IMG/VR virus record: IMGVR_UViG_3300021437_000017
Location: 1 to 63,911 of that record
DNA length: 63,911 nucleotides
From: a virus
Strand: one strand, 5' to 3'
Made by a program: the position numbers and the translations under genes. Positions within the stretch are counted from its first letter, which is position 1. Each line of letters opens with the position of its first letter. The notes beneath the pieces are model-generated. The model searched no databases. It had not been told where the DNA came from and saw only the letters and a list, made by a program, of their open reading frames with translations. Shown piece by piece: positions 6,895 through 59,128 of this stretch.

Positions 6895-6969
6895 CGCGGA
6901 GTGGCGCAGCAGCAGCGCGGGTGGCTCATAACCATCAGGTCACGAGTGCAATTCTCGTCTCCGCAACCA
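6895..6969 (+). tRNA. Initiator-like tRNA-fMet (CAU), divergent, CCA encoded
   Basis: This folds as a full cloverleaf with anticodon CAT in loop CTCATAA, as in tRNA-fMet. Acceptor pairs 2-7 are intact, and pair 1-72 is C x A, the mismatch that defines bacterial initiators. The anticodon stem ends with two of the usual three G-C pairs (30-40 and 31-39; 29-41 is T-A). Odd points are a 7-nt D loop without G18-G19, T loop TGCAATT instead of TTCAAAT, and C11-G24 as in elongators. CCA is encoded. It lies six bases after the preceding stop codon. Confidence 0.85.
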
Positions 6970-21352: not shown

Positions 21353-21695
21353 GCCTTACCTTTGCACGCCACGGCAAGCCTCTGCCCACACTATCCTGCC
21401 AGACCGCGCCGCTGCGGACCTGATCTGGCCCCACCTCGCCATACATTACCCCGCCGAATCTTGCCACGCCCCTGCGCGCCCAACCCAGCCGTTCCGAGCC
21501 TTGCCGAAATTGGCTTTCCCCATCACAACGCCCTCCTGCGAGGGCGCTGGAATTGCGATTGCCTTGCCAAACAACTCCATTCCTCACCGAACCTCACCAT
21601 TGCCAGCCCCACAACACCGCTCCATACCCGGCCGCTGCAAACCTATGCCTTGGCAAACCGCGCCGAACCAACGCCCATTCAAACCACTCCACATT
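21353..21695. repeat. Non-coding pentanucleotide-phased G-rich array
   Basis: Read on the - strand, GG recurs every five bases. On the + strand, of 34 consecutive pentamers from 21351 to 21520, 22 end in CC and 30 end in C, in constant register. The phase slips after about 21520 but the pattern continues to about 21690. The three other bases vary freely, so this is not a simple tandem repeat. It separates two - strand genes and would be transcribed as a G-rich RNA. I know of no function. Confidence 0.85.
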
Positions 21696-22337: not shown

Positions 22338-22397
22338 ATGCCACGGCGAATGCCACGGCTCATTACTAAGGCTATGCCAATTTGGCATACCTGTCAA
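22338..22397 (-). promoter_or_regulatory. Cassette promoter with operator between -35 and -10
   Basis: On the - strand: TTGACA (22397-22392), 17-nt spacer, TAGCCT (22374-22369). The spacer contains TGCCAAATTGGCA, the core of a 15-bp perfect palindrome (22374-22388). Downstream, ATGCCACGGC occurs twice, at 22338-22347 and 22350-22359, 12 bp apart, sharing the ATGCCA half-site. The arrangement TTGACA-N10-ATTGGCA-TAGNCT recurs at the two early promoters at 50282-50311 and 50476-50505. Confidence 0.75.
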
Positions 22398-32870: not shown

Positions 32871-33080
32871 CTAACCATTCATCGGCGTAATCTGCCGCGC
32901 TTCTTCCTGCGTGGTCAGTCGAATGTGTATTCCATCCTCACTCTGAAATGCTATCACGGCAGGACGCTTGTCCCCGTCTTCGATGGCCTGAATTGAATCC
33001 ATGTCCGCTTGCGTTATGAGCATCTCAACAATGCCGAGCTTGCGAAAAACCATCACCAATGCCTTATGCCATTCGTCCAT
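32871..33080 (-). CDS. Hypothetical protein, end of carbohydrate operon
   Basis: This 69-residue protein starts at MDEWHKALVMVFRKLG, its ATG overlapping the glycosyltransferase stop (TGATG). It looks like a small mixed alpha/beta fold without Cys or membrane segments. It is the last gene of the - strand operon and ends face to face with the + strand late operon, with no intergenic bases and no hairpin visible. Confidence 0.6.
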   Translation of the reverse strand: MDEWHKALVMVFRKLGIVEMLITQADMDSIQAIEDGDKRPAVIAFQSEDGIHIRLTTQEEARQITPMNG

Positions 33081-33979
33081 CAAAGTACTCCCGGTGTTAG
33101 TCCGTGTTCATGCAATACTTCCCGCGCTCTCAACCAAGCCCCGGTCTGTCCAAGCACCATCTGGATGACCGCACTCCAATCATCGGCGGGTACCCCATCA
33201 GGATGGAACTCCTGCGCAAGCGTTGCGCAGCGATCATACAGGTTGCAGAGTTGGAAGTGGTTTAACTCGGCAACCCTCAAGGCATCCTCGCCAGTTGCGG
33301 CTCTCAACTTGCCTTGAAATCCCATGTTCGTAAGGCTGGCTACCTCGCAATGAACGTGCTGCGGATTCGACACGACGTAGAATCCCTTGTCTAATGCTGC
33401 CAGCCAGCCCCAGAGAACGTCCGGCGTATGCTTGCCAGCCAGCGCAGCATACTTAGCCAAGAACTCCCTGCTGTATCCGCCAATCGTCGAGCCGTAGGCG
33501 AGCCGCATCAGGCCCTCTCCAGCCTTGATATAGCCACTCTCACGCGGATAACCAGACACGGACTGGCGGTTAGTCTCCCCCGGCTTTTCAAAAAACATCG
33601 TGCAGGCAACCGCAGAGCATGGATTGGCATCAACGGCTTCCATGCAGATCTTAACGCGATCAGGAAGGCTGTAGTCATCCGCTGACGCTTGGAATATCCA
33701 GTCGCACTCTGGCGAAGTCTGCTGCCATAGCCAGTCCATGTGCCTATTGGCCGCTTCCATGCTGAACGGAAGATCGATAGGACATTGTACGATCTTGACG
33801 GTGTGATGCGTCGGACCGAAAGAGTCAACCGTGTCGCGCATAATTTGCAAAGTCTGGTCCGTTGAACATTGATCGCTTAACACGACCTCGCATGGATATG
33901 TTTGCTCAAGAGCGCCACGGACGGAACGGGCGACATAATCCTGCTTCTGGCGGGCGTTGATTACGAAGGCGGCGCGCAT
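33080..33979 (-). CDS. Family 2-like glycosyltransferase
   Basis: This 299-residue protein opens with a GT-A fold: residues 1-45 (YVARSVRGALEQTYPCEVVL, SDQCSTDQT) bind the nucleotide part of the sugar donor, and FQASADDYSLPDR around residue 95 carries the DxD-type acidic motif. It would add the sugar made by this operon to a lipid or polysaccharide acceptor. Start and stop overlap its neighbours (TTAG/ATG and TGATG), so it is coupled. Confidence 0.75.
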   Translation of the reverse strand: MRAAFVINARQKQDYVARSVRGALEQTYPCEVVLSDQCSTDQTLQIMRDTVDSFGPTHHTVKIVQCPIDLPFSMEAANRHMDWLWQQTSPECDWIFQASADDYSLPDRVKICMEAVDANPCSAVACTMFFEKPGETNRQSVSGYPRESGYIKAGEGLMRLAYGSTIGGYSREFLAKYAALAGKHTPDVLWGWLAALDKGFYVVSNPQHVHCEVASLTNMGFQGKLRAATGEDALRVAELNHFQLCNLYDRCATLAQEFHPDGVPADDWSAVIQMVLGQTGAWLRAREVLHEHGLTPGVL

Positions 33980-35109
33980 TAGATGAACTCCACTTGCGGT
34001 GGCGTGGGAGTTGTAGGGAATGTTGCGTCACCGTTTTTGAGATCGAAAAGAAATTTGTTTGCCAAGTGTTGCAAACAATTTGGAGGGCATCTTGTTTGTG
34101 GATTGAACTGATCAGACCCGATATACCGCATGACCTCCCAATACCGCTCGCTCTTGAAGATGTCTCTGAATCTCGTGCGCATGATGTTGCCAATGTGGAA
34201 CGCCTTGTACTTCTCGTTGAAAAACGGACCACACGTAGCAATCAGGCCGTTTCCGCTCATCTGCAATATGAATGGTGGTCCATAGCAGCGAGTATATTGA
34301 CGCACAGCAGCTTTCCCGATGCGGTTCCACTTGGCTACTATGCGCGTCCTGTCATCGGTTAGTGCCTCGCACTCCTTGAAGGTATCCTCCAGCGCATCGT
34401 AGTCGGCATAGTTCACCTTGATCATGCCGTCATCGTCGGTCGCGCAGTGCTTGATTACCGCATAGTGAACGCCAAGCTCCTTCGCAAGGTGGGCGAACGG
34501 CAGCAACTGATCAGAGTCCTTCGGCTCTAATACCAAATTCATATTCACGTTGCATTCAAGCCCGCTGGAGTTGACGATATCCATCGCATCACGGATATTC
34601 TGACTCACCTTGTCGTAAATTGCTGGCTTCACTCCCATGATTTCAGAGTAGCGTTTGCGAGTCCCGGCGGAGAAATTGAAGCGCAGGTATGACACGCTAG
34701 GCAGGATGCGCTCAAGCAACGGACGTTCGAGCGCGATGCCGTTTGAGCCAAGCCCGATCTTGATGCCTAGCCTCCCTGCGTACTCGATGGAGTCTGCGTA
34801 GTAGTCAACCAGCGTAGACTCGCCGTCGCTGATAAGGCTGATCCCCTTGACGCCTATTTCGGCGGCGTCATCGAGGAACTCCCATGCCTTCTCGCGCGGA
34901 ATGTCCAGAGCGGGGGATGCCGATGCCTGGGTCTTGGCGGCGCAAAACGAGCAGGCTGCGTTGCAACGGCGCGACCACGCAATATCCATGGTGATTGGAG
35001 CCACCCTCTCGCCCCTCATCCAAGCCTCGACTCGCTCCTTGTGCCAGCCTATTTTAGTACCGTCGATAATCAGCCTTGCCGTCATCTCGTTCGCGACTTC
35101 GCTGCTCAT
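33979..35109 (-). CDS. Radical SAM enzyme
   Basis: This 376-residue protein has the cluster-binding motif CNAACSFC (CxxxCxxC, residues about 49-56), then ISDGESTLVD and GLGSNGIALE typical of the radical SAM barrel, and a C-terminal Cys-rich part (RCYGPP, ATCGPF, RCPPNC) like a SPASM or twitch domain that binds further iron-sulfur clusters. The substrate is unknown. In a sugar-modifying operon it could carry out epimerisation, dehydration or C-methyl chemistry on a nucleotide sugar; that is inference. Confidence 0.8.
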   Translation of the reverse strand: MSSEVANEMTARLIIDGTKIGWHKERVEAWMRGERVAPITMDIAWSRRCNAACSFCAAKTQASASPALDIPREKAWEFLDDAAEIGVKGISLISDGESTLVDYYADSIEYAGRLGIKIGLGSNGIALERPLLERILPSVSYLRFNFSAGTRKRYSEIMGVKPAIYDKVSQNIRDAMDIVNSSGLECNVNMNLVLEPKDSDQLLPFAHLAKELGVHYAVIKHCATDDDGMIKVNYADYDALEDTFKECEALTDDRTRIVAKWNRIGKAAVRQYTRCYGPPFILQMSGNGLIATCGPFFNEKYKAFHIGNIMRTRFRDIFKSERYWEVMRYIGSDQFNPQTRCPPNCLQHLANKFLFDLKNGDATFPTTPTPPQVEFI

Positions 35110-35276
35110 AGCGATTCCTCTTTTATCATCTTCTTCGCCGCATCCAAGTATATTCCGGCCGGAAACTGCTCTTCCAATGGTCTGTCCAAGTCCACGATGA
35201 CTGGCTCTAGCGGAACCGGAAGATCAAGCAATGCAAAGTTACCGCTGCCATTCGGATTCACGACCCCGAGTTTCAT
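35106..35276 (-). CDS. Small hypothetical protein of the carbohydrate operon
   Basis: This 56-residue product (MKLGVVNPNGSGNFALLDLP...) is packed between neighbours by 4-nt ATGA overlaps on both sides, which supports it being a real gene. It contains LPVPLEPVIVDLDRPLEE and an amphipathic C-terminus. It shows no recognised family and may be an accessory peptide of the radical SAM enzyme next to it. Confidence 0.6.
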   Translation of the reverse strand: MKLGVVNPNGSGNFALLDLPVPLEPVIVDLDRPLEEQFPAGIYLDAAKKMIKEESL

Positions 35277-35461
35277 TTTGCGCGCCTTGCATCCATGATA
35301 ACCCGAAGTTGCGAATCGTCTTTCATCCTATGCTTATACACGCGGCAATCAAGCCCCGATATCTTCCTCAAATTTACCTCGAAGTCGAATAACGCTTTGG
35401 CTTGGCAGTCATCAGGCACTCCGTCGCCGAAACTGACAATTACTTTGATAGGATCGCTCAT
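35273..35461 (-). CDS. Small hypothetical protein of the carbohydrate operon
   Basis: This 62-residue product (MSDPIKVIVSFGDGVPDDCQ...) shows alternating strand and helix and one Cys. Both ends overlap neighbouring genes by ATGA. I do not recognise it. With the 56-residue product downstream it forms a pair of tiny proteins between the thiamine-diphosphate enzyme and the radical SAM gene. Confidence 0.6.
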   Translation of the reverse strand: MSDPIKVIVSFGDGVPDDCQAKALFDFEVNLRKISGLDCRVYKHRMKDDSQLRVIMDARRAK

Positions 35462-36123
35462 TTAGACACGCTCATATTCTCCTCATACTCGGCGCGATCC
35501 AAAAACGGATACATGTCACTGATGTCGCCAGAGCTTACAGAACCGTCAGAATTCTTGCGCGACTGCACGCGGGGGATTAGTGGCTGGTCTGGCGGCATGG
35601 CAATCTCGCAAATTGCGGGGCCAGTATAGTCTAGGATGCGGTCTAAAAACAGGCGGACATCTTGGGCATCGTCCAGACATGAATAATGAATGTCGTACGC
35701 ATTTGACAAAGGAATTAAGTCAGGAAACGATATACCACTTCCATCGTCACTGCCAACCCTGCGTCCGAAATGGTTATCCTGCATGTGTTTGATCGTAAGA
35801 TACCCGCCGTTATTCAAGACGAAGATGATGATAGGAAGCTTGTGATGGGCTATTGTGGCAAGTTCCTGGATGTTGAATTGGAAGTCTCCGTCGCCAACAA
35901 TACACACGACCTTCTTGCCCGTAGCAAATACGGCCCCTATCGACGCGGGTAATGCGTAACCCATCGCCGAGTAGCCCGGAGCCGAAAGCCAGCGCTGGCC
36001 GATCTTCATTTTGGCCGCTTGATATGTGCAAGTGAACGATGTTCCGGTTCCGACAACCACTGTGGCGTCCGCTGGGAGCGCATCAGAAAGTAGTTTGATA
36101 AAATAATAACTGTTGATACTCAT
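35458..36123 (-). CDS. Thiamine-diphosphate enzyme, C-terminal half (split gene)
   Basis: These 221 residues form the pyrophosphate-binding domain of an acetolactate-synthase-like enzyme. The ThDP/Mg motif is VGDGDFQFN followed about 20 residues later by FVLNNGG, and YSAMGYALPASIGA precedes it. The catalytic glutamate lies on the other polypeptide, so the two products must assemble. The ATG overlaps the stop of the HNH gene (ATGA), so it is probably translated by reinitiation. The two halves together have about 587 residues, the normal family length. Confidence 0.85.
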   Translation of the reverse strand: MSINSYYFIKLLSDALPADATVVVGTGTSFTCTYQAAKMKIGQRWLSAPGYSAMGYALPASIGAVFATGKKVVCIVGDGDFQFNIQELATIAHHKLPIIIFVLNNGGYLTIKHMQDNHFGRRVGSDDGSGISFPDLIPLSNAYDIHYSCLDDAQDVRLFLDRILDYTGPAICEIAMPPDQPLIPRVQSRKNSDGSVSSGDISDMYPFLDRAEYEENMSVSK

Positions 36124-36830
36124 AGAAGAAACCCGCGCTGCTGCATGAAGGTAATTGGGTCTTTATCGCGTTTTGACGAATTGCATGACAAACAGACAAG
36201 TTGAATATTGGTAATCCAATCAGAGCCTCCGCGAGACAGCGGTTTAATATGGTCTTTGCAATATGGTTTAGGAAGATCATGACTACAAATAGCGCATTTT
36301 CCTTTTTGGAGATCAAATAATGTTCTAACTTCAGATGCGTTGTGGTGTCCATCAGCGCCGTGATTAAGTGCGCGCCTTTTTGCTGCGTGAGCCATTCCAT
36401 TGTCTGGGTTGCGGCGCTTCCATTCGGCGCCAGCTTTATTAACGCGTAATTTGTTTGCAATTCTCCACGCACGATCAACGGCCAGATAGTGATCTGGTTT
36501 AGCGGCTCGGCATCGCATCTTAATAGCGCGGTATTTTTCAGGGTTGGCTGCTCTGCGCTTCTGTTCTGCTGCACGCCGTTTCCCTGGATTTGCCTCGCGC
36601 CATGCTTTATTAATTTCCGTTAGCCTTTCCTTTTGTTCCTGATAACGAGCGGAATGATAATGTTTTTCACAAAGTTCCTTAGCTTTAGATGGCAATCCGC
36701 ATACAGAACAAGGAGGTTTTGGTTTCCTCTTACTGATATACGACGTAACATGCCTCTTGGCGTCATAATGACGTTGGCAAAGACCTTTTGCCATTTGAGG
36801 GTTTTCGCACGATGGGGCAGAGCAAATCAT
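36120..36830 (-). CDS. HNH homing endonuclease splitting the thiamine-diphosphate gene
   Basis: This 236-residue protein starts MICSAPSCENPQMAKGLC. Two N-terminal zinc-finger-like modules (C-x4-C-x8-C-x2-H and C-x2-C-x8-C-x2-H) are followed by a basic helical linker with NPEKYRA-type repeats and an HNH nuclease domain: CAICSHDL, then DHIKPLSRGGSD and NIQLVCLSCNSSK. Its start overlaps the stop of the upstream half-gene and its stop overlaps the start of the downstream half, both as ATGA. No extra intron sequence surrounds it. This is an invaded gene in pieces, not an intron or intein. Confidence 0.9.
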   Translation of the reverse strand: MICSAPSCENPQMAKGLCQRHYDAKRHVTSYISKRKPKPPCSVCGLPSKAKELCEKHYHSARYQEQKERLTEINKAWREANPGKRRAAEQKRRAANPEKYRAIKMRCRAAKPDHYLAVDRAWRIANKLRVNKAGAEWKRRNPDNGMAHAAKRRALNHGADGHHNASEVRTLFDLQKGKCAICSHDLPKPYCKDHIKPLSRGGSDWITNIQLVCLSCNSSKRDKDPITFMQQRGFLL

Positions 36831-37927
36831 TTCTGCTCGGCATACTCTGGCAGCACGACGGGATATTTGTCGCGCCATATCTCGCATTGCCAACGCCATT
36901 CTTCTCTGTCACCCAATCCATCCGCTTGCGTTTCTAAGAGGGTTCTGGCGAATTTCTTCGCGTCGCACTCAATCTTCAGATCAACACGCAGCGATGGCTT
37001 ATTCATCTCCGCGCTGTCAATATCGACCATGATGATTTTTGCAGTAGGCGCAAACTTAGGGAAGCTGTAGCCGATCATCGGGACTGACATGCGGCACCCC
37101 ATGATGAGCAGCAAGTCGGCGTTCTGGGCAGCGTAGTTTGATGCGCGGTCTCCGAATAGTCCCATGTGGCCGATGTGGCAAGGACCATCGGCAATCATGT
37201 CCGCTGCCGACCATGATGAGATTACCGGGATTCCGAGCGCACCGATCAGTTCGCGTATTTCATGTTGCGCGCCCGCTAACCTCACGCCGTTGCCAATGAT
37301 CAGTACCGGGCGTTTGGACTGTCGCAACATGGATAGGCAATGCAGTGCGGTCGTCCGCCAGTCTTTTTCAACACGATCTGGCTGGATATAGCCGCGTAGC
37401 AGATCAGGGTCAATCTGCTTGCTCTGGATGTCGAGCGGTATGTCGATCCAGACCGGTCCCGGCCTTCCGGAGTTGGCGATGTAAGCCGCCTTCTCCAACT
37501 CGTAGCGAATATCCTTCTCGTCCTTGATCGTCACCGCATGCTTGGTGATTGACTTGACGAGCGTAACGATGTCAGTTTCCTGCACACCGAATTGACGCAG
37601 CCCGGTATCTGCAATCAGTTGGTCGCGCGTTACCTGTCCAGAAATAGCAATAAGAGGGGTAGAGTCAACCCAAGCGCAAGCAATTCCCGTGATTGCATTC
37701 GTACCGCCAGGCCCACTGGTAACAAGAACACAGCCAATACCGCATATCCTAGCATAAGACTCAGCAGCCATCGCGGCAGCCTGTTCATGATTACACGCAA
37801 CATATTTAAACCTCTCATGATGTCCGAATGAATCATTCAAGTACATTGCGCCGCCGCCGACGACACCAAAAACGTGCGTGATGCCGAGATCAGCAATGAA
37901 GTCTGCGACGTAATCTGAAAGCCTCAT
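36827..37927 (-). CDS. Thiamine-diphosphate enzyme, N-terminal half (split gene)
   Basis: These 366 residues carry the pyrimidine-binding domain and the central domain of an acetolactate-synthase-like enzyme. HVFGVVGGGAMYLND, the catalytic glutamate in NHEQAAAMAAESYAR, TSGPGGTNAITG and PGPVWIDIPLDIQ are family landmarks. Such enzymes decarboxylate a 2-keto acid and pass the carbanion to an acceptor; in surface-sugar clusters relatives (YerE type) add a two-carbon branch to a keto sugar. The product ends LPEYAEQK just where the HNH gene starts. Removing the HNH gene between its ATGA overlaps would not restore one frame. Confidence 0.85.
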   Translation of the reverse strand: MRLSDYVADFIADLGITHVFGVVGGGAMYLNDSFGHHERFKYVACNHEQAAAMAAESYARICGIGCVLVTSGPGGTNAITGIACAWVDSTPLIAISGQVTRDQLIADTGLRQFGVQETDIVTLVKSITKHAVTIKDEKDIRYELEKAAYIANSGRPGPVWIDIPLDIQSKQIDPDLLRGYIQPDRVEKDWRTTALHCLSMLRQSKRPVLIIGNGVRLAGAQHEIRELIGALGIPVISSWSAADMIADGPCHIGHMGLFGDRASNYAAQNADLLLIMGCRMSVPMIGYSFPKFAPTAKIIMVDIDSAEMNKPSLRVDLKIECDAKKFARTLLETQADGLGDREEWRWQCEIWRDKYPVVLPEYAEQK

Positions 37928-37931
37928 GGTA

Positions 37932-38588
37932 TTAATATTGCGTTCTACCTGCGCTCAAGTCAAACGTCGCCCCAGTAGTCCCCGAACATTCCTCACTCGC
38001 CAGCCAACAAACAAGCGATGCGACTTCCTCAACGGTAACGAATCTTTCCATCGGGCATTTGTGCAGCATGATCTGAAGTTGCTCCTCGGGCACGCCGTCG
38101 AATAAAGACGTTCTGACCGCTGATGGCGTAACGCAATTCACCGTGACGCCTGTTTTGGCAGTCTCTTTCCCCAAGCATTTCGTGAGCGCAATCACGCCAG
38201 CCTTCGATACGGAGTATGCCGGCGCCATCGGGTTCACGTCCTTGCCGACCGCGGAACTCATGTTGACAACGCGACCATAGCCCCGACGCACCATGCCGGG
38301 GATGACGTGCTTCGCCACAAGGAACTGGCCGGTGAGATTGACTGCCATCACGTTATCCCACTCGTAGCGTATGTAGCCAAGAGCGGAACCGATTGGGCCG
38401 AATACCCCGGCATTGTTCACAAGAACATCAATGGTCCCGATCTTATCCACTGCGTCGATGACTTGCGCTTCGTCGCGAACATCGGTGCCGTGTGTCCATG
38501 CGTGGACGACGTGGCCAGATGCTCGCAGTCTGTTTGCCACAGCCAAGCCGATGCCACGATTGCCGCCCGTTACCAAAGCCACTCTCAT
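37932..38588 (-). CDS. Short-chain dehydrogenase/reductase
   Basis: This 218-residue SDR has cofactor motif TGGNRGIGLAV (TGxxxGIG), structural NNAG in LVNNAGVFGP, catalytic Ser in VVNMSSAVG and YxxxK in AYSVSKAGVIAL. It would oxidise or reduce a hydroxyl or keto group of a sugar intermediate, alongside the thiamine-diphosphate enzyme downstream. Cofactor preference cannot be told with confidence. It overlaps the SIS gene by 4 bases. Confidence 0.87.
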   Translation of the reverse strand: MRVALVTGGNRGIGLAVANRLRASGHVVHAWTHGTDVRDEAQVIDAVDKIGTIDVLVNNAGVFGPIGSALGYIRYEWDNVMAVNLTGQFLVAKHVIPGMVRRGYGRVVNMSSAVGKDVNPMAPAYSVSKAGVIALTKCLGKETAKTGVTVNCVTPSAVRTSLFDGVPEEQLQIMLHKCPMERFVTVEEVASLVCWLASEECSGTTGATFDLSAGRTQY

Positions 38589-39040
38589 TGACGCTCCTTT
38601 TTCAGTTGCAGCATCGCTGCGTGCCCGGCAACGATCTGATATGCTTCTGCATCCTGCATCGTGTCTCCTTCCATCTCGCCGCCGTCTGCGTAGGTAAAGG
38701 CATGAGGATCTGCGAAGGAACCCGTAATTGCGAAGGTCGCCATCCCGATTCTATTGGCGGTGATAATCGCCTTCAAGATGTTGATGGAATTGCCGCTGCC
38801 CGACAGCGCAATAAGCAGATCGCTAGGCTCTCCGAATACCAGCAATTGCATGGAGAATACTTCTTCGTATCCGTGGTCGTTCGCGATGGCGGTGAGCGTT
38901 GAAACGTCAGCGGTGAGCGCGTAAGCACGGATGCCGACAGAGATAAGATCGTTCGCGATGTGGATTGCGTTGGCGGCACTCCCGCCATTGCCGCAAAGAT
39001 AAACGCGCTTGGCCTGTTTTATGGCATCAACAAGTTTCAT
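38585..39040 (-). CDS. SIS-domain sugar isomerase, GmhA-like
   Basis: This 151-residue SIS domain has YLCGNGGSAANAIHIANDL (phosphosugar loop), LTAIANDHGYEEVFSMQL and ALSGSGNSINILKAI, as in phosphoheptose isomerase, which converts sedoheptulose 7-phosphate into D-glycero-D-manno-heptose 7-phosphate. It is shorter than GmhA (about 190), lacking the N-terminal helices. It is coupled to the kinase gene by a 4-nt overlap. With the next two genes it forms most of the heptose activation pathway. Confidence 0.8.
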   Translation of the reverse strand: MKLVDAIKQAKRVYLCGNGGSAANAIHIANDLISVGIRAYALTADVSTLTAIANDHGYEEVFSMQLLVFGEPSDLLIALSGSGNSINILKAIITANRIGMATFAITGSFADPHAFTYADGGEMEGDTMQDAEAYQIVAGHAAMLQLKKERQ

Positions 39041-39852
39041 CCGAACACTTCCTCCGCTGTCGCAACTGCTGTTCCGAATCTGCCCACTACGATACCGGCC
39101 GCTTTATTTGCGTAACGCGCTGCCTCAACGAGCGTGTGGCCGCGCGTAAGAGCGACCGCTAGCGCCGCAATCGCTGTATCGCCAGCGCCCGACACATCGA
39201 ATACATCCTTCGCAACGCATGGTATTTGAATGACCTCCGCTTCAGTAAAGAGAGTCATGCCGGCGCTTGCTCTGGTAAGCAGAATTGCCCCAATTGCCGA
39301 TTCTCGTCGCAAGCGTTCGGCTTTCTGCGCCATTTGTTCCTCGCTGCCCCAACCGCCAACCATTTCACGCAACTCATTGAGGTTGGGCTTGATGACATCG
39401 GCCCCGCGGTAGCGCTCGTAATCGTGGCCCTTTGGATCAACCAGAACCGCCTTATCGGACTCTTTGGAAATCGCGATAAGGGACGCAACGAATGAAAGAG
39501 ACCCTTTGCCGTAATCCGAGAATACAACCACGTTAGCATCTCCCAACAAGCGTTGAAACTCCTTCAGAATAACGGGTTCTTGTGGCTCGTCGAAGTCTAC
39601 CCTGACAACCTGCTGCTGCTTGGCGATAACTCTAATCTTCGTGACCGCCTTGGCGCTCGGGCTATACAGCGTGTCGCAGGTTGCACCCATCGCAATGCAA
39701 TTAAGGGCGACATTGGCTGCCGCGCCCGCTCGTTCTTCCATTCTGCCCATCTTGACTACAGGCACTGGTGCTTCTGGGGAAATGCGCTCGACGTTACCGA
39801 ACCAGTAAACATCTAGCATCCGATCTCCGACGACCAGAATCCTATTCGACAC
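39037..39852 (-). CDS. PfkB-family heptose kinase (HldE N-domain-like)
   Basis: This 271-residue ribokinase-fold protein opens with ILVVGDRMLDVYWFGNVERI followed by SPEAPVPVV, as in the kinase domain of HldE/RfaE. ERAGAAANVALN is the substrate region and DVSGAGDTAIAALA holds the catalytic Asp and anion hole. It would phosphorylate heptose 7-phosphate at C1. In most bacteria the kinase and nucleotidyltransferase are fused or adjacent; here they are separate genes overlapping by 11 bases. Confidence 0.85.
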   Translation of the reverse strand: MSNRILVVGDRMLDVYWFGNVERISPEAPVPVVKMGRMEERAGAAANVALNCIAMGATCDTLYSPSAKAVTKIRVIAKQQQVVRVDFDEPQEPVILKEFQRLLGDANVVVFSDYGKGSLSFVASLIAISKESDKAVLVDPKGHDYERYRGADVIKPNLNELREMVGGWGSEEQMAQKAERLRRESAIGAILLTRASAGMTLFTEAEVIQIPCVAKDVFDVSGAGDTAIAALAVALTRGHTLVEAARYANKAAGIVVGRFGTAVATAEEVFG

Positions 39853-40300
39853 CGCGCCCCCTGCCGGCTTGATCGATTCTCTTTCGCAGCAGTTCTCCGC
39901 TGATAATTTCGGTTGATGAATAAACGATATCGTTTGTCACGATGATCAACCTCCCACCACACGCTTCAACCGCCGCACGCTCCTTCGCCAGATTTCCGGT
40001 TTTGTCGCCGTTGAGATAGTCAGGCCCCTTCGCGAAGAACGCGGGCCGCACGATGTTGATGACCGCAACGGCGTTCTCGTGGTCGGACAGGATTACGTTG
40101 TCCACAAACTTGAGCGCGGCAATCATCTCCATGCGTTGCTCTTCATTGAATATCGGCCTACCATCACCTTTGCACACCCATCGATCAGAAGTCACGCTGA
40201 CAACAAGACGATCGCCGTATTCCTTGGCTTTCTGCAAATGTTTCTTGTGGCCAATGTGCAGAAGGTCGTAAGTGCCGTGAGCTAAGACTGTCTTAGTCAT
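39842..40300 (-). CDS. Heptose-phosphate nucleotidyltransferase (HldE C-domain-like)
   Basis: This 152-residue cytidylyltransferase-fold enzyme has GTYDLLHIGHKKHLQKAKEYG (HxGH motif in HIGH), SDRWVCKGDGRPIF, the E-E-Q-R motif in NEEQRMEMI, and a C-terminal STEIISGELL in place of the usual S/T-T-T-I. It would activate heptose 1-phosphate, normally with ATP to ADP-heptose. No GmhB phosphatase gene is visible, so the intermediate dephosphorylation would rely on the host. Confidence 0.85.
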   Translation of the reverse strand: MTKTVLAHGTYDLLHIGHKKHLQKAKEYGDRLVVSVTSDRWVCKGDGRPIFNEEQRMEMIAALKFVDNVILSDHENAVAVINIVRPAFFAKGPDYLNGDKTGNLAKERAAVEACGGRLIIVTNDIVYSSTEIISGELLRKRIDQAGRGRGVE

Positions 40301-40471: not shown

Positions 40472-40711
40472 TCATCCGCGCATCACCACCACTATCCCCC
40501 GCGCAATCTTAGGCATGATTTTGATGTAGCCCTTCCTGGCGATGAGATTCATGTGCTTCTGGGCGGCGCTCGCGTTCGCCCATTCAAAGTACTTCGATAT
40601 TTCACCACGTGTCGGCGGATATCCATTCTCATCGTGGAATCTGCAGATGAATTCCAGAACCCTTAATTGAAGCGGTGTGAGCGGCTTCCAAGTTGGTATA
40701 AGCCCTTGCAT
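40472..40711 (-). CDS. LexA-type winged-helix regulator without protease domain
   Basis: This 79-residue protein equals the LexA DNA-binding domain: LTPLQLRVLEFICRFHDENG (helix 1), YPPTRGEISKYF and ASAAQKHMNLIARKGYI (recognition helix and wing). There is no C-terminal Ser/Lys autoprotease, so RecA-triggered self-cleavage is not expected. It is the first gene of the carbohydrate operon. The ATG is only 7 nt from the -10 box, so its mRNA is probably leaderless, as with lambda cI from PRM. Confidence 0.8.
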   Translation of the reverse strand: MQGLIPTWKPLTPLQLRVLEFICRFHDENGYPPTRGEISKYFEWANASAAQKHMNLIARKGYIKIMPKIARGIVVVMRG

Positions 40712-40718
40712 ACGTGAC

Positions 40719-40747
40719 TATATATCCTAATGACTAAATTATGTCAA
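40719..40747 (-). promoter_or_regulatory. Promoter of the carbohydrate operon
   Basis: On the - strand: consensus TTGACA (40747-40742), 17-nt spacer, TATATA (40724-40719), then 7 nt to the ATG of the LexA-like gene. TGACTA occurs twice on the + strand, at 40715 and 40731, 16 bp apart, and could be an operator. This is the only strong promoter seen ahead of the operon. Confidence 0.75.
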
Positions 40748-46517: not shown

Positions 46518-46714
46518 CACCCACCACCTTGGCTCGCCAGAAACTTGTTCAGTCGCTTGATGCGCGTCTGATTGTAGCTGATGATGCTCGCGGCAAACTC
46601 CTGCCCAGTGTGCGCTTCGAGCAACTTGCGCTCGGCTTCGTCCAGTTCGCGCGCCGCGAGTTCTTTCGGCGTCGGCGCGGGCCAGATGTTGTAGAGCCAA
46701 GTGCGGAGGTTCAT
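46517..46714 (-). CDS. Hypothetical small protein next to the recombinase gene
   Basis: This 65-residue product starts MNLRTWLYNIWPAPTPKELA and is then helical (ARELDEAERKLLEAHTGQEF). It is coupled by ATGA to the recombinase gene. Similar small proteins accompany Sak4-like genes in other phages, possibly as partners; this is inference. Confidence 0.55.
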   Translation of the reverse strand: MNLRTWLYNIWPAPTPKELAARELDEAERKLLEAHTGQEFAASIISYNQTRIKRLNKFLASQGGG

Positions 46715-47733
46715 GCTGCCGCCTTGCGCTTCGTTAAAACGGTGTCGATCCACGTATGACAGCGCGGCAGATCGGCTTCAAGGATTAGCGATAAGCGTTC
46801 TACCTTCGCGGCTTTCTTGAGCGCGTCGATGTTTATTCCGTTGTCGGTGCAACGGGCTTCGAGTGCGAGCGCTTCTTCTGGCGCGATGTAGGGGGCCGCA
46901 GACGATCCCGGTTGGCTAGCACTACCTTTCGGCCCTAAGTCAGATACGTTCTCTGAAGTGGCCGGGATCGTCGCGGCTTTCGGTGATCCGCCAGCAGCCC
47001 ATGCAGCGAGGCGCTTCCCGGATTCCTCGGTGATTGGCTTGTCCAACGGGAAAAGTGATCTGTGTTGCTCTTGCAGTTTGATCGGATGCGGAATACCAGG
47101 ATGCGATGCCATGAGCAGGAAACTTGCGGTTAACTCGTAAGGCATGTTCTTCTCGCATACCGGCATCCATCCATCAAGCCCGATTGCGGACTTCTTCGGA
47201 ACGATCTCCATTTTACCTTGCGCGTTCTTGACCATCTCGATCTTTTCTTCTGCCCGGAAGCACAGAATCAAGTGTGCGCGCACTTGTAGCAATTTCTGGA
47301 TCATCGCCTTATGTGCCATCTTGGGCTTGATCCAGCTTGCCATCTTCACGCGCTCGCGCTTGCCGTAATCGTCGCCAGCCATGCGGGTAAGTTCGTCGTC
47401 AGCCCAATCGAGGATTCCGCCGTCTCCGGCCCATTCGTGAGAACAGGAATCCACCACGATCACCGGATATCCGGCCTTGTCAGCAGCCATGATCGCCTCA
47501 GCGTAAGCATCAGGTCGGAAAGGCGGCTTGAGGTCGCCATGGTCAAAGTTGAACTGGTCGGCGTAGTGCTTCGCGCGTCCTGCCTCGGTGTCGATAACCG
47601 CAAATGGCTTATCACCGCAGATTCCGCTGGCGAGCCGCATCGCCGTATAGGTCTTGCCGCTGCCGCTGGCTCCTATCAGCCCAATAATCAGCCCGACGTT
47701 CTCTCTGGTCGCCTTGCGGAAAGTGAAGCTCAT
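46711..47733 (-). CDS. Sak4-like RecA-fold ATPase (recombinase)
   Basis: This 340-residue protein has Walker A in GLIGASGSGKTYTA and Walker B in VIVVDSCSHEW, with FAVIDTEAGRAKHYAD between. Sak4-type ATPases are phage single-strand annealing or strand-exchange proteins. The C-terminal 90 residues after the core look flexible, as is typical. It is paired with a RecE-like nuclease gene through a 4-nt overlap, forming a phage recombination module. Confidence 0.8.
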   Translation of the reverse strand: MSFTFRKATRENVGLIIGLIGASGSGKTYTAMRLASGICGDKPFAVIDTEAGRAKHYADQFNFDHGDLKPPFRPDAYAEAIMAADKAGYPVIVVDSCSHEWAGDGGILDWADDELTRMAGDDYGKRERVKMASWIKPKMAHKAMIQKLLQVRAHLILCFRAEEKIEMVKNAQGKMEIVPKKSAIGLDGWMPVCEKNMPYELTASFLLMASHPGIPHPIKLQEQHRSLFPLDKPITEESGKRLAAWAAGGSPKAATIPATSENVSDLGPKGSASQPGSSAAPYIAPEEALALEARCTDNGINIDALKKAAKVERLSLILEADLPRCHTWIDTVLTKRKAAA

Positions 47734-48623
47734 AGCGGCACGCCTCCTTTTAATTCTTCCTCGCTGAACTTGCTATTCGCTTCCTGTTCCGCGAATCGCT
47801 GTTCTTCCCACGGCATCGGCTCGGCGTGGCAGATTCGATCCGGGTAGGCTGGCCAATAGCCGTTTGCAAGGCACTCTTTCCATATCCCGACCGCGCGCCA
47901 CATCTTGCGAGTTGCCAGATCGTCCCATGCTGGCGAGAGACAGATCAACGAACAGGCGTAAGGATAGCTCTGTTCCTGCACCAGATGCACGCAGCGGGGC
48001 GGCATGTCATCAGGTGACAGGGTAGCTACCCCTTTTTCGTAGAACACTGTGGCGGCGTCATAGGACGGCAATTGAGTGCGAATCCAGGACTCCGGGTTAG
48101 CGGTTCCGGCGGTCGTTTTATAACTCAGAATCAGCCCGTAATCGGCGGTCAGCCAGTCAGGACGAATCTTGCAACGCACTCCGTCAAGATCAAAAATCAC
48201 CGTCTCCTCTGGTAGGCCAGTATCGAATACGTTAGAGATTTCGCTGTTGGCGATGTATTCCTTGGCGGTTTTGACCATCGCTTCGACTTCTGGCAATTTG
48301 TGCGCGAGGATTGGCAGCTTGCCAGCCGCCCGCGCTTCGTCGCGCTGTTCCTTCGCGGCTTTGGCGCGCCAGTCGTCGGCTTCGATCATGACTAGTCCGA
48401 CGTGGCCGCCTTCGAGCAGGAGCGCATGGGCATAAGTCCCGAGGTCCATCTTGCTCGAATCCTCGCGCTCGCGGTTTGGGTTAAGCCAACTGTCAGTCCA
48501 CGCGTGCAGCGGACTGGCCGACAGGATCGTATGGCACATGCCAGAAGAAAAGGCGGAAATGGCCAGATATTGAGCCATGCTCATGTCGGCGTAGAGTCCT
48601 GGCACAACTTCGTTCGCGCTCAT
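47730..48623 (-). CDS. RecE/Cas4-like PD-(D/E)XK exonuclease
   Basis: This 297-residue protein starts MSANEVVPGLYADMSM. The order SPLHAWTDSWLNP, DLGTYAHALLLEG, then VIFDLDGVRCKIRPDWLT (catalytic Asp in RPDW) and LILSYKTT (with Lys of the E/D-x-K position) matches the RecE C-terminal nuclease family. It would resect DNA ends to feed the neighbouring recombinase. In the last motif the usual D-x-K is S-Y-K, which may reflect divergence. Confidence 0.8.
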   Translation of the reverse strand: MSANEVVPGLYADMSMAQYLAISAFSSGMCHTILSASPLHAWTDSWLNPNREREDSSKMDLGTYAHALLLEGGHVGLVMIEADDWRAKAAKEQRDEARAAGKLPILAHKLPEVEAMVKTAKEYIANSEISNVFDTGLPEETVIFDLDGVRCKIRPDWLTADYGLILSYKTTAGTANPESWIRTQLPSYDAATVFYEKGVATLSPDDMPPRCVHLVQEQSYPYACSLICLSPAWDDLATRKMWRAVGIWKECLANGYWPAYPDRICHAEPMPWEEQRFAEQEANSKFSEEELKGGVPL

Positions 48624-49308: not shown

Positions 49309-50062
49309 CGCGCTCAATCCTCACTCTCATCTCGCCCTCGCGGTCACGATAAATATGTTCTTCCTCATCCGCCTGCCGCTTTGCCGCGCGGTAGCACTGC
49401 GAGCAAAGGTCGAGATACTGCGCTGGCCCGACTCCGCATTCACGGCATAGGGGTGCCGCAGCGTTCGTAGGCTGGCCAGCCGTTCCGGTAGTCTCCGCAA
49501 TGGGATTCCCCGGTGACGGGTTCTGTTCCTGCGACGCTGCGGCATTCGACGCAGCTGCGAGCATGGCTTTGAACACCCTGCCGCATACATATTGATAGCT
49601 TCTACCGTGTGATAGCATTTGCAACGCTTCACGCAGTTCGTCGGCGCCACGATTTAGCATCTCGCCATCCGGCACGACCGCAACCGGCTCGGCGTGTTGT
49701 TTACCTATCGGTCGCCAATACTCGCAATCAATCTTTCCTTTTCCCTCGGCCAAAAGTTTGTGCGCATAGACACAAATCTCTGGCATGTTGTCGTCTATCA
49801 CGCAACCGTCAGGCTCGAATCCGTCAGGCATGTTCTCAATGTCGCAATGACAGCCATACTTTACCGCAACCGTCTCGGTGGGGAGGGTGGCGAGCGCATC
49901 GCGTGCAATCTTACGCATATAGTCGCGCTCGCCATTGCTGCCATACTCGACACCATAGGTTGACGGCAGTCCCTCGCGAGATTTGACTGGTGGAAATTCT
50001 CCAAACCATCGCTCAATTCTTTGAAGCGCCTCGACCAGCCGCGCGTTGATGTCGTTGCTCAT
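49301..50062 (-). CDS. Hypothetical early protein with C-terminal zinc ribbon
   Basis: This 253-residue protein has a helical N-terminal half of unknown type, a low-complexity linker (residues 168-200) and a zinc-ribbon-like module, LCRECGVG followed by LCSQCYRAA (CxxC...CxxC), then a charged tail. It may bind nucleic acid. It is coupled to the upstream small gene by ATGA. Confidence 0.6.
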   Translation of the reverse strand: MSNDINARLVEALQRIERWFGEFPPVKSREGLPSTYGVEYGSNGERDYMRKIARDALATLPTETVAVKYGCHCDIENMPDGFEPDGCVIDDNMPEICVYAHKLLAEGKGKIDCEYWRPIGKQHAEPVAVVPDGEMLNRGADELREALQMLSHGRSYQYVCGRVFKAMLAAASNAAASQEQNPSPGNPIAETTGTAGQPTNAAAPLCRECGVGPAQYLDLCSQCYRAAKRQADEEEHIYRDREGEMRVRIERDE

Positions 50063-50226
50063 TCAACCGACTCCCTATCTTTTTGCCAGTTAATACCGCG
50101 CGACCACCTGATGTGATGGTAGATCGCCATGATCAGCAGCCCGGCGCTGAATGCTGAGAACATCAGCGCGGCATAAGTCATGTCGGGCCATGCGATGAGC
50201 GTTAATGCAAGCTGGCTACAGGTCAC
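50059..50226 (-). CDS. Small membrane protein, first gene of the leftward operon
   Basis: This 55-residue product starts at GTG with ribosome site aaagga. A membrane segment (YAALMFSAFSAGLLIMAIYH) is followed by a basic soluble end (HIRWSRGINWQKDRE). A longer in-frame version lacks a ribosome site and runs into the promoter region. It is the first gene downstream of the leftward promoter at 50282-50311. Confidence 0.6.
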   Translation of the reverse strand: MTCSQLALTLIAWPDMTYAALMFSAFSAGLLIMAIYHHIRWSRGINWQKDRESVE

Positions 50227-50281: not shown

Positions 50282-50311
50282 AGACTACTGCCAATCGGCA
50301 ATATGTGTCAA
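50282..50311 (-). promoter_or_regulatory. Leftward early promoter (PL-like) with operator
   Basis: On the - strand: TTGACA (50311-50306), 18-nt spacer, TAGTCT (50287-50282). The spacer holds TGCCGATTGGCA, an imperfect palindrome with TGCC/GGCA arms. Design and operator match the rightward promoter at 50476-50505. It would drive 50226 down to 44679, including the recombination genes. Confidence 0.75.
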
Positions 50312-50314
50312 GAA

Positions 50315-50473
50315 CTATTTTTGCAAGGGGATAATGCGGGGCGGGGAAGGGATTGCCCACTGTTTGCCGATTTTGATTGCGCCATGGATGCGGTCTTTGG
50401 CGCAAAGCAACTTGATACGGGCGCGGGATAGATTGAGCCGATGCGCGGCTTCGGTAGCGGAAAGATATTTCAT
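50315..50473 (-). CDS. 52-residue helix-turn-helix protein in repressor position
   Basis: This product begins MKYLSATEAAHRLNLSRARI and reads as a compact MerR/excisionase-type HTH: Y-L-S-A-T-E-A-A (helix 1), L-S-R-A-R-I (helix 2) and IKIGKQWAIP (wing). It lies between PL-like and PR-like promoters and is transcribed leftward from its own overlapping promoter, the place of cI in lambda. Its ATG is 7 nt after the -10 box, with no ribosome site. It may be the repressor, or an excisionase-like regulator. Confidence 0.75.
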   Translation of the reverse strand: MKYLSATEAAHRLNLSRARIKLLCAKDRIHGAIKIGKQWAIPSPPRIIPLQK

Positions 50474-50475
50474 AG

Positions 50476-50505
50476 TTGACATGATAAGCCGATTGGCAAT
50501 AGACT
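50476..50505 (+). promoter_or_regulatory. Rightward early promoter (PR-like) with operator
   Basis: TTGACA (50476-50481), an 18-nt spacer and TAGACT (50500-50505). The spacer carries GCCGATTGGCA at the same offset as in PL. It faces and overlaps the promoter of the 52-residue HTH gene, so one operator can control both. The transcript has a leader of about 125 nt before the first clear gene at 50639. Confidence 0.75.
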
Positions 50506-50510
50506 GTCAA
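50481..50510 (-). promoter_or_regulatory. Maintenance-type promoter (PRM-like) of the HTH gene
   Basis: On the - strand: TTGACA (50510-50505), 18-nt spacer, TATCAT (50486-50481), then 7 nt to ATG 50473. The spacer contains GCCAATCGGC, the reverse view of the PR operator. TTGACA and its inverse at the two ends (50476 and 50505) make the whole 35-bp element nearly symmetric. Confidence 0.75.
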
Positions 50511-50638: not shown

Positions 50639-50980
50639 ATGGCACAATTGGAAAGCGTCACCTTTACCGGAGCCGATGCAGGCAAAGTTACGCCGGACAA
50701 AGTAACCTATGAGAACGTAACGCCTGGTCTAATCACCGCATTGCATCTTGGCATCAAGATCAGCGAAATCAAGAGCGCCTGTCCCGAACTCGAAGCGGCA
50801 TGTAATCGCAAGATCGACGCGGCGGAAAACTTCGCCAACCTGTGCAAGTTGGTCGCGCTGAAATCCGGGATTGATGCGAGCGTGCTATCGACCTATATCA
50901 CGGCAGTCTGCAACGAAACGCTGGCGAAGAAAGAAAAACAGGCCGAACAGTTGTCACTGCTATTCGAGGAAATGGCATAA
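50639..50980 (+). CDS. Early rightward protein, unknown
   Basis: This 113-residue product starts at MAQLESVTFTGADAG with ribosome site ggaggt. The central helices (SACPELEAACNRKIDAAENF) are followed by a charged end (KKEKQAEQLSLLFEEMA). An in-frame upstream extension from GTG 50555 lacks a good ribosome site. It is the first gene of the rightward early operon, where antitermination or Cro-like functions often lie, but I see no HTH. Confidence 0.65.
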   Translation: MAQLESVTFTGADAGKVTPDKVTYENVTPGLITALHLGIKISEIKSACPELEAACNRKIDAAENFANLCKLVALKSGIDASVLSTYITAVCNETLAKKEKQAEQLSLLFEEMA

Positions 50981-56213: not shown

Positions 56214-57092
56214 TCATGCAGCTTGCGCTTCATCAGCAACCGCCTCCGCTTTCCAGCCAGTCACAAAATCAGCAGCTTTCTGCGCGTGACTCGCAGCGGT
56301 CAAGACTGCGCGCTTGTCATTTTTCAGGACTTGCAGCCAGCTTGCAATATATTCCGCATGTTGCAACTTGCCCGCAATGCCGCAATGCCCGCACAGATAA
56401 GCAGCGCCCATTTCGGCAACCAGTTCCTCCCTTGCGTATTGCTCATCGCCGTAGCGCTTGCCGTATTCGCGTGCTAACCTGGATTGATGACCAGTCCAAT
56501 GAGTTAGTTCATGCAAGCCGGTAGCGTAATAACTTCCAGCATCGGTGAAACTTTCTGGCGTTGGCAGTTGAATGAAATCATGCGATGGCGTAAAGAATGC
56601 GCGGTCACCACCATGCTTGACCACGGCTTTTGAAAGCAGCGCCTCCGCTTGTGTTTGACGCTCAATCTGCGTGCGCTCGTCAAGTTTCGGCAGATACTTT
56701 TCTGGCAAACCTTCTACTTGCGCCACATTGAAAACGGTGAAGCTGCGCAGAATGGGAATGGTTTTCTCAACGGCGTCTTTGTCGCCGGCCGCAATCGCTT
56801 TCACGTCGCGGATTTTCCACGGCTTGAAAAATACGATCATTGATCCATGCTCGCCAGCTTTGACATGCGCGCCAACTTCTTGCGCTTGCTTGTAGGTAAG
56901 CCAGCCGGTGAACGTATACTCATTGCAATAGAGCAGCGGGATATTGATCCCGCGATAACTCTTGCCTGATATCACGTTGTAAGGCATTCCGCCATTAGGA
57001 GCAGCGCAATTCCATGGCTTGATCCACGGCGTTACACCTGCCTCAAGTTTCGCAATGATCTTGTCAGTTACTTCTTGATACAGATCGCGCAT
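56214..57092 (-). CDS. ardC: ArdC-type antirestriction protein
   Basis: This 292-residue protein has the N-terminal single-strand DNA-binding domain of ArdC (VTDKIIAKLEAGVTPWIKPW, GMPYNVISGKSYRGIN, FTGWLTYKQAQEVGA) and a C-terminal metallopeptidase part with HELTHWTGH (HExxH) and EELVAEMGAAY (third ligand). In conjugative plasmids ArdC protects incoming DNA from restriction. In a phage early operon it would do the same, together with the methyltransferase. The ribosome site is gaggg. Confidence 0.88.
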   Translation of the reverse strand: MRDLYQEVTDKIIAKLEAGVTPWIKPWNCAAPNGGMPYNVISGKSYRGINIPLLYCNEYTFTGWLTYKQAQEVGAHVKAGEHGSMIVFFKPWKIRDVKAIAAGDKDAVEKTIPILRSFTVFNVAQVEGLPEKYLPKLDERTQIERQTQAEALLSKAVVKHGGDRAFFTPSHDFIQLPTPESFTDAGSYYATGLHELTHWTGHQSRLAREYGKRYGDEQYAREELVAEMGAAYLCGHCGIAGKLQHAEYIASWLQVLKNDKRAVLTAASHAQKAADFVTGWKAEAVADEAQAA

Positions 57093-58332: not shown

Positions 58333-58518
58333 TCAAACTTTGGGCAGCTTGGGCTTGCTAGGACGTGCAGCAATATGATCCTTCCACCTCGCTGCAATCG
58401 CTTTCCGACTGATCGCCATACGCTCATCAGGATCAAGCGCCGCAGCTCGCGCACGGCCGCCCTTAGCACCAATCAGCGCCAGGTAATCACGCAGCGACTT
58501 GTTGCTCATATCATCCAT
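58333..58518 (-). CDS. Small KGG-motif basic protein, probable regulator
   Basis: This 61-residue product starts MDDMSNKSLRDYLALIGAKG, followed by GRARAAALDPDERMAISRKA and ARW, a motif often seen in small plasmid and phage DNA-associated proteins. The start 58518 lies 8 nt after a -10 box with no ribosome site; an internal ATG at 58509 is possible. Regulation of the adjacent operons is plausible but unproven. Confidence 0.6.
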   Translation of the reverse strand: MDDMSNKSLRDYLALIGAKGGRARAAALDPDERMAISRKAIAARWKDHIAARPSKPKLPKV

Positions 58519-58526
58519 GGTCGGCA

Positions 58527-58556
58527 AGGATACGCGCAACGCTCGCCAATTGTCAA
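58527..58556 (-). promoter_or_regulatory. Promoter giving a near-leaderless mRNA
   Basis: On the - strand: TTGACA (58556-58551), 18-nt spacer, TATCCT (58532-58527), then 8 nt to ATG 58518. Transcription would start at or beside the start codon. Confidence 0.65.
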
Positions 58557-58984: not shown

Positions 58985-59128
58985 TCAATGCCTGATGCCC
59001 AAAACGCGCCAGGATTCGATTACAGCCACGCAAAACGCTCCTGGGTTGGTAGGTAGCCTGAAGCCGCGCTGCACGTCGCTACGGCGTTCCTGATGGCCTT
59101 CCTGACGATTCTGTATGGTGTTTGACAT
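58985..59128 (-). CDS. Possible small protein
   Basis: This 47-residue frame (MSNTIQNRQEGHQERRSDVQ...) ends AFCVAVIESWRVLGIRH, which looks protein-like. There is no ribosome site before the ATG and no coupled neighbour. It may be a real small gene or chance. Confidence 0.3.
   Translation of the reverse strand: MSNTIQNRQEGHQERRSDVQRGFRLPTNPGAFCVAVIESWRVLGIRH

Follow-up and report, generated by a model that had tools for sequence, protein, structure and literature searches.

The divergent early junction and its two operators

The window, i.e., the whole stretch of viral DNA that was analysed (63,911 nucleotides, an IMG/VR virus record), contains a compact region in which two divergent promoters flank the gene of a 52-residue protein with a helix-turn-helix (HTH) motif. 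The elements of this region and the genes on both sides are listed below; the promoters and the first small gene were read from the sequence, and the two larger genes of the leftward operon were assigned by family matches.

50311-50282, minus strand: PL-like promoter, TTGACA N18 TAGTCT, with an operator in its spacer, reading into the leftward recombination operon
50476-50505, plus strand: PR-like promoter, TTGACA N18 TAGACT
50510-50481, minus strand: PRM-like promoter of the 52-residue gene, TTGACA N18 TATCAT
50289..50300: operator OL, TGCC-GATT-GGCA on the minus strand, a palindrome with a centre of four nucleotides (N4); exact GCCRATYGGC, evaluated by Monte Carlo
50488..50498: operator OR, GCCGATTGGCA, in the spacer of both PR and PRM
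50473-50315, minus strand: 52-residue HTH_17 protein of predicted excisionase/BldC fold (Pfam, PHROG, AlphaFold, Foldseek)
50059..50223, minus strand: first small gene downstream of PL, GTG start, RBS AAGGA
47730..48623, minus strand: RecE/exonuclease VIII-like protein (phrog_412), leftward operon
46711..47733, minus strand: AAA_24 ATPase (phrog_1366), leftward operon
50639..50980, plus strand: first gene downstream of PR, 113 residues, strong RBS, with relatives in L017, L074 and L098

All three promoters proposed in the initial annotation were found in the sequence. PL and PR indeed follow one design, TTGACA-N6-GCCGATTGGCA-G-TAGTCT on the minus strand and TTGACA-N6-GCCGATTGGCA-A-TAGACT on the plus strand, and share a palindrome: exact matches to GCCRATYGGC in the 63.9 kb occur at PL and PR only (the sites at 50289-50300 and 50488), one in each control region (PL; PR/PRM). 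One-mismatch matches number 19 in the whole window. The two regions had been described as inverted copies identical at 20 of 27 positions and about 190 bp apart. An inverted similarity of 22/30 (50282-50311 against 50476-50505) was found, which fits that description; when the intergenic region was dinucleotide-shuffled 200 times, the best inverted 30-mer scored at most 21. The distance between the dyad centres of OL and OR was refined to 198 bp. GCC-N4/5-GGC is present in the spacer of four of the seven TTGACA..TANNNT promoters of the window (500 shuffles: mean 0.008, maximum 1), and all three TTGACA..TAGNCT promoters carry the palindrome (0 in 500 shuffles). The TTGACA at 59122, which adjoins TGCCGATCCGGCA, was considered as a further promoter and rejected, as neither a convincing −10 nor a downstream gene accompanies it.

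The third promoter overlaps PR head to head, as had been claimed: a single stretch of 35 bp serves PR in one orientation and PRM in the other, with the −35 of each adjoining the −10 of the other and OR lying in both spacers. From this position of the operator, autorepression is predicted and not activation of PRM. With 50481 as the last position of the PRM −10, TATCAT, and the A of the start codon at 50473, the gap is 8 nt; transcription would thus start at or next to the ATG, and the mRNA of the 52-residue regulator is, judging by this spacing, probably leaderless. No Shine-Dalgarno sequence is visible for this gene. The cI mRNA of phage lambda is likewise leaderless. The same geometry recurs elsewhere in the phage, at 58333-58556 (minus strand), where a small gene (MDDMSNKSLRDYLALIGAKGG...) has a TTGACA..TATCCT promoter a few nucleotides ahead of its ATG. 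In E. coli, RNA polymerase is known to bind one segment in two orientations at bidirectional promoters (Warman et al., PMC12825309). In most of those, a −10 is common to both directions and the starts are separated by about 10, 18 or 23 bp, whereas at PR/PRM the −35 and −10 swap roles and the predicted starts are ~38 bp apart, so that both promoters occupy the same DNA.

The HTH_17 gene stands alone between PL and PR, and a second, antagonistic repressor gene was not found at the junction. The first rightward gene (50639..50980) is without an HTH match, and family scans gave no significant match for the first gene 3' of PL (50059..50223). The S24 peptidase domain (PF00717) has no match in the record, nor has the tyrosine integrase domain in a search with PF00589 only of a record that is possibly incomplete. 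The likeness to lambda noted in the initial annotation is therefore one of geometry and not of logic. As in the CI/Cro region, divergent early promoters flank a regulator gene, one operator is common to PR and PRM, and the regulator mRNA has leaderless geometry; unlike in lambda, there is one operator per promoter, the geometry predicts autorepression, and matches to a Cro partner, S24 peptidase or integrase are lacking. The 10 kb around the switch gave no match in the phage database. An ArdC-type anti-restriction protein is encoded further along, at 56214-57092 (minus strand).

The small HTH gene between the promoters is real. Its product scores against Pfam HTH_17 with an E value of 3.3e-6 and 27.7 bits, barely over the curated cut-off of 27, in a match that covers profile positions 1-39 of 51, and its PHROG match is HTH/excisionase. 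No sequence relative was found in the PDB, and tblastn yielded distant HTH_17 relatives only. AlphaFold, run on an alignment of two sequences, gave a best model with a pLDDT of 86 and four others of ~57-63, so that confidence in the fold is moderate; the structure models of this analysis are monomers. The closest structures to the best model in Foldseek were those of lambda Xis (2og0/1rh6; TM 0.76-0.78, E 0.04-0.06), followed by Pukovnik Xis (4j2n), and BldC (6ama) matched as well; the model thus points to a winged HTH of the Xis/BldC type. BldC of Streptomyces (68 residues) resembles the 52-residue protein in being a single-domain MerR-like regulator and differs from it in its genetic context and its operators, which are direct repeats (PMC5859096). 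Small excisionase-fold proteins at a pR-pL region are also known in Apl of phage 186 and Cox of P2. These act on multiple direct repeats, as was described for the binding of Apl (PMC7498355), while OL and OR are single palindromes that lack the direct-repeat sites about one helical turn apart typical of HTH_17/excisionase proteins, and here no integrase match accompanies them.

A third promoter of the same design in a VIPR-type operon

The initial annotation missed a further promoter with the operator, P3, which was read from the window in the same way as the others and precedes a two-gene operon inside the structural gene region:

22397-22369, minus strand: promoter P3, TTGACA-GG-TATGCCAAATTGGCATA-GCCT, spacer of 17, −10 TAGCCT
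22373..22389: operator O3, TATGCCAAATTGGCATA, a perfect 17-bp palindrome of the N5 type, kept in three relatives that carry the XRE gene
22319-21696, minus strand: 207-residue protein of predicted RAMP fold, Vipr-like (AlphaFold, Foldseek)
21418..21671, minus strand: degenerate NNGGY pentamer tracts, vrRNA-like, the longest of 11 units with imperfect units included
21352-21179, minus strand: 57-residue XRE/Aca2-like HTH protein, last gene of the operon and candidate ligand of the palindromes

O3 sits between the −35 and −10 of P3, i.e., as an inverted repeat within the core promoter, and PL, PR and P3 have the right half-site and −10 in common, ATTGGCA-(N)-TAGNCT. The 57-residue XRE gene, which follows that of the 207-residue protein and lies 28 kb from the PL/PR switch, was absent from the initial gene list and was found by family search. 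Its product matches HTH_31 (7e-8), HTH_3 (2e-6) and Aca2_YdiL (24.8 bits against 23.8) in Pfam, all above the cut-offs, and is without the C-terminal dimerization domain of Aca2. A tRNA-Met (CAT) gene is also found between structural genes of the window, at 6895-6969 (plus strand).

Aca proteins bind an inverted repeat that is always located within the core promoter (PMC9410906; PMC8434428). They average 60-65 residues (PMC9410906), which makes the earlier remark that a 52-residue repressor would be one of the smallest known less striking. Like the operons of Aca2 and Aca10, the P3 operon has a small HTH gene at its end, an inverted repeat in its core promoter and an Aca2_YdiL match. It differs from them in that the upstream gene encodes a predicted RAMP fold and not a known Acr, that the same class of operator is also present on the main early promoters, and that the XRE protein, at 57 residues, lacks the dimerization domain.

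The 207-residue protein was modelled with a pLDDT of 85.5, and Foldseek related the model to Csm3/Cas7 subunits (E about 1e-6). It ends in a conserved G(V/I)GDFRPTYGRF, and in the model it has the appearance of a VIPR effector, i.e., a single RAMP-fold protein of ~20 kD with a G-loop. VIPR systems were first described in 2026 (PMC13142463). In that preprint, which worked on phage SUSP1, they are presented as phage-encoded, RNA-guided systems that are used against competing phages and combine vrRNAs, in which GGY and NN alternate, with one small RAMP protein and an accessory gene. SUSP1 was among the weak tblastn matches of the 207-residue protein.

The flanks of the 207-residue gene consist of degenerate NNGG(C/T) pentamers: in the window, 30 of the 38 distances between successive GGY can be divided by five. 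In 52 of 78 relatives, more than 60 % of the upstream GGY spacings are multiples of five, versus 16 % inside the gene. Of about 80 related viral loci (L131-L210), 70 contain runs of at least six NNGGY units, on the sense strand only; such runs start at 871 positions of this strand within 94 kb of flank, at 0 on the antisense strand and at 16 in 630 kb of distant sequence. The NN positions are random, and the longest run comprises 34 consecutive units (upstream in L172); taken together, the flanks of these homologues are a rich collection of VIPR guide arrays. In the window itself the tracts are short, with 5-11 units of which some are imperfect. Self-targets of these tracts under the 1-nt skip rule of RNA-guided DNA targeting by VIPR were not found above chance, and the idea that the vrRNA-like tracts are aimed at the phage's own switch was rejected with self matches at chance level.

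Both the fold and the arrays match the VIPR systems of PMC13142463, and the P3 operon is accordingly classed as a VIPR-type locus. Common to both are the RAMP fold, the flanking NNGGY arrays, an accessory DNA-binding gene and the location in a phage; the arrays of the window differ in being short and imperfect. As the accessory genes of some VIPR types encode predicted DNA-binding proteins, according to the same preprint, the XRE protein may by analogy be both the VIPR accessory protein and the autorepressor of its operon. The parts of the preprint that were consulted contain no statement on this XRE protein or on operators at early promoters.

Operators and regulators in related phages

A scan with the 207-residue protein gave 138 relatives, of which 80 were kept, and 79 upstream regions were ranked by their mismatches to TATGCCAANTTGGCATA. 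An XRE downstream of the 207-residue homologue is found in three relatives, L135 (77 % identical), L203 (67 %) and L181 (65 %), with the promoter sequences TATGCCAATTTGACATA, TATGCCAAAATGGCATA and TTAGCCAATATGGCATA, respectively. These three are the best of the 79, with 1, 1 and 3 mismatches of 16, against at least four, and mostly 6-8, in the 76 relatives without XRE. The chance of the three carriers ranking on top is 1/C(79,3) = 1/79,079, about 1.3e-5, and the XRE is thereby tied to the TGCC..GGCA palindrome. An independent case is L128, in which an XRE-type gene lies beside a promoter of the same design, TTGACA..TGCCGGGTGGCAG-TAGCCT.

Two copies of TTGCC-N4-GGCAA, 56 bp from each other, lie in the record of L135 (L216, 1-700), at a divergent early junction with the gene of a 67-residue HTH protein that has near-leaderless geometry and no HTH_17 match. 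Pairs of TGCCN4GGCA within 300 bp numbered one in 40 control records. The XRE is the protein common to this record and the window, and since the N4 sites of the L135 phage stand beside an unrelated small HTH, the shared factor would be the XRE. The base of this comparison is three relatives with XRE, one of which gives an early junction. The centre of the palindrome is N4 at all four early-junction sites (two at PL/PR and two in the L135 phage) and N5 at the XRE-operon sites of all four phages.

Among relatives of the recombination cassette, L076 is covered best. It shares the recE-ATPase genes, and the corresponding junction encodes an HTH_17 protein, the promoter region of which contains an 11-bp inverted repeat. 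This junction has no TGCC sites and L076 has no XRE. The first rightward gene led to L017, L074, L098 and L099 (L074 and L099 belonging to one record), at the junctions of which neither a similar operator nor such an HTH_17 protein was found. Instead, L017 has a P22-Cro/YdaS-like protein with palindromes of its own at the junction, and a sigma4-like small HTH is located there in L049 and L074. The presence of such different tiny HTH proteins at one junction suggests that its regulator is readily swapped. In L017 (5712-5800), the palindromes TTTGCATAAGCAAA and TTTGCGGACGTAAA lie upstream of and inside the promoter of the leaderless P22-Cro/YdaS-like gene. A relative with both this HTH_17 protein and this operator was not found, and pattern scans of viral and genome collections for the exact switch gave 14 (about chance), 7 and 0 matches, none with the same layout.

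Candidate ligands of the palindromes and a model of early control

The 57-residue XRE protein is the preferred ligand of the palindromes, with about half of our confidence; just under a third falls to the HTH_17 protein and what is left to other possibilities, shares that reflect the difference between the N4 and N5 centres. As the same kind of palindrome lies on the promoter of the VIPR operon that encodes it, the 57-residue repressor is a likelier master regulator than the 52-residue protein, which the initial annotation had proposed as the repressor; the Xis/BldC-like fold of the latter, of a class binding direct repeats, speaks against that role. Several observations weigh against the XRE. 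A rigid dimer may not accept both an N4 centre at PL/PR and an N5 centre at the XRE operons, the N4 sites of the second phage come from one record, OR lies inside the 52-residue gene's own promoter, which is the usual sign of autoregulation, and the protein lacks the Aca2 dimerization domain.

The strongest alternative, possible and less favoured than the XRE, is that the HTH_17 protein binds both TGCC-N4-GGCA sites and represses PL, PR and its own PRM, with the XRE confined to the N5 operator; the two centre lengths would then reflect two different proteins. Its gene lies between both operators and its promoter contains one of them, regulators usually autoregulate, and in phage 186 both pR and pL are repressed by Apl (PMC7498355). 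The junction of L076 cuts both ways, as the HTH_17 protein and the 11-bp inverted repeat are found there next to the same recombination genes but in the absence of TGCC sites. Against this alternative, Xis and BldC, the nearest solved folds, represent binders of direct repeats, the protein ends after 52 residues and reaches profile positions 1-39 of 51 only, the L135 phage has N4 sites beside an unrelated HTH, and this HTH_17 protein and this operator do not occur together in any relative found.

It is unlikely that the ligand is a repressor of the host or of a resident prophage, or the phage's LexA-domain protein (40472-40711). Resident repressors can hijack phage early promoters, and a protein that consists of the LexA DNA-binding domain only is encoded in the window. 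The link between XRE and palindrome is specific, however, and the LexA-domain protein was rejected as ligand since its own promoter (40747-40717, minus strand) has a TAGTCA direct repeat and no TGCC..GGCA palindrome. The LexA-domain gene (79 residues; 40472-40747 with its promoter, minus strand) is another with leaderless geometry, its TTGACA N19 TATAGT promoter ending ~6 nt before the ATG.

Activation in the manner of MerR is very improbable. Here the 52-residue winged HTH would bind the palindrome in the 18-bp spacers, distort the DNA, activate PL and PR and block PRM. The MerR-superfamily fold, the palindrome in the spacer and the divergent autoregulated gene would suit such a mechanism, and the binding sites of MerR activators lie between hexamers with incorrect spacing (PMC12825309), but spacers of 18 bp (17 at P3) are too short to need untwisting, the −35 is already consensus, and the protein has no coiled-coil dimerization helix. 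That the repeats and promoters arose by chance is hardly credible. Short motifs do recur in 64 kb, as the 19 one-mismatch matches illustrate, but the shuffle tests and the conservation of the operator class across phages statistically refute chance for the association of palindrome and promoter.

In the preferred explanation, with the XRE protein as ligand, the locus serves a tailed phage as its switch for early transcription. Here PL would direct transcription leftward into the recombination genes and PR rightward into the early genes, and the PRM-like promoter, on the same DNA as PR, would yield a leaderless mRNA for the 52-residue Xis/BldC-fold protein. One TGCC..GGCA palindrome covers each core promoter between −35 and −10, so that a dimer sitting there would keep RNA polymerase from PL, PR and PRM alike; this dimer would most likely be formed by the XRE/Aca-like protein from the last gene of the VIPR-type operon, the promoter of which has the same design. 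On entry, the consensus −35 sequences would allow strong transcription of the early genes and of VIPR. Upon accumulation of XRE, its binding at P3 and at PL, PR and PRM would shut off the VIPR operon and the early genes together, and regulation would amount to a shared negative-feedback timer, not a bistable CI/Cro switch. The 52-residue protein would be made from PRM until OR is filled and could work on the same region in the way of Apl and Cox, as a second, autorepressed early regulator or an architectural protein.

A further step, tentative and somewhat short of probable, is that one 57-residue Aca-like repressor governs both the VIPR weapon and the whole early programme. With the last gene of the VIPR operon as master early repressor, VIPR accumulation would automatically close the early promoters of the phage itself; alternatively, a resident copy would immunize against related phages with the same operators. 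As one class of operator joins the VIPR operon and the early promoters, the timing of VIPR relative to early genes can be tested with two small proteins and three short promoters. The locus also calls for caution in assigning a repressor by gene proximity alone.

Two observations concern the metabolic genes of the window. An HNH endonuclease ORF (36120-36899), read in another frame, separates the N+M and C parts of an acetolactate-synthase-like TPP enzyme (35458-37927, minus strand); this is a candidate intron or homing-endonuclease insertion, for which Rfam gave no match to an intron signal. The split gene is part of a sugar-nucleotide cluster (33080-40300, minus strand) encoding SIS_2 (GmhA-like), PfkB kinase and CTP-transferase-like (HldE-like halves), SDR, TPP enzyme, radical SAM/SPASM and GT2 proteins, i.e., an ADP-heptose-like pathway in a phage.
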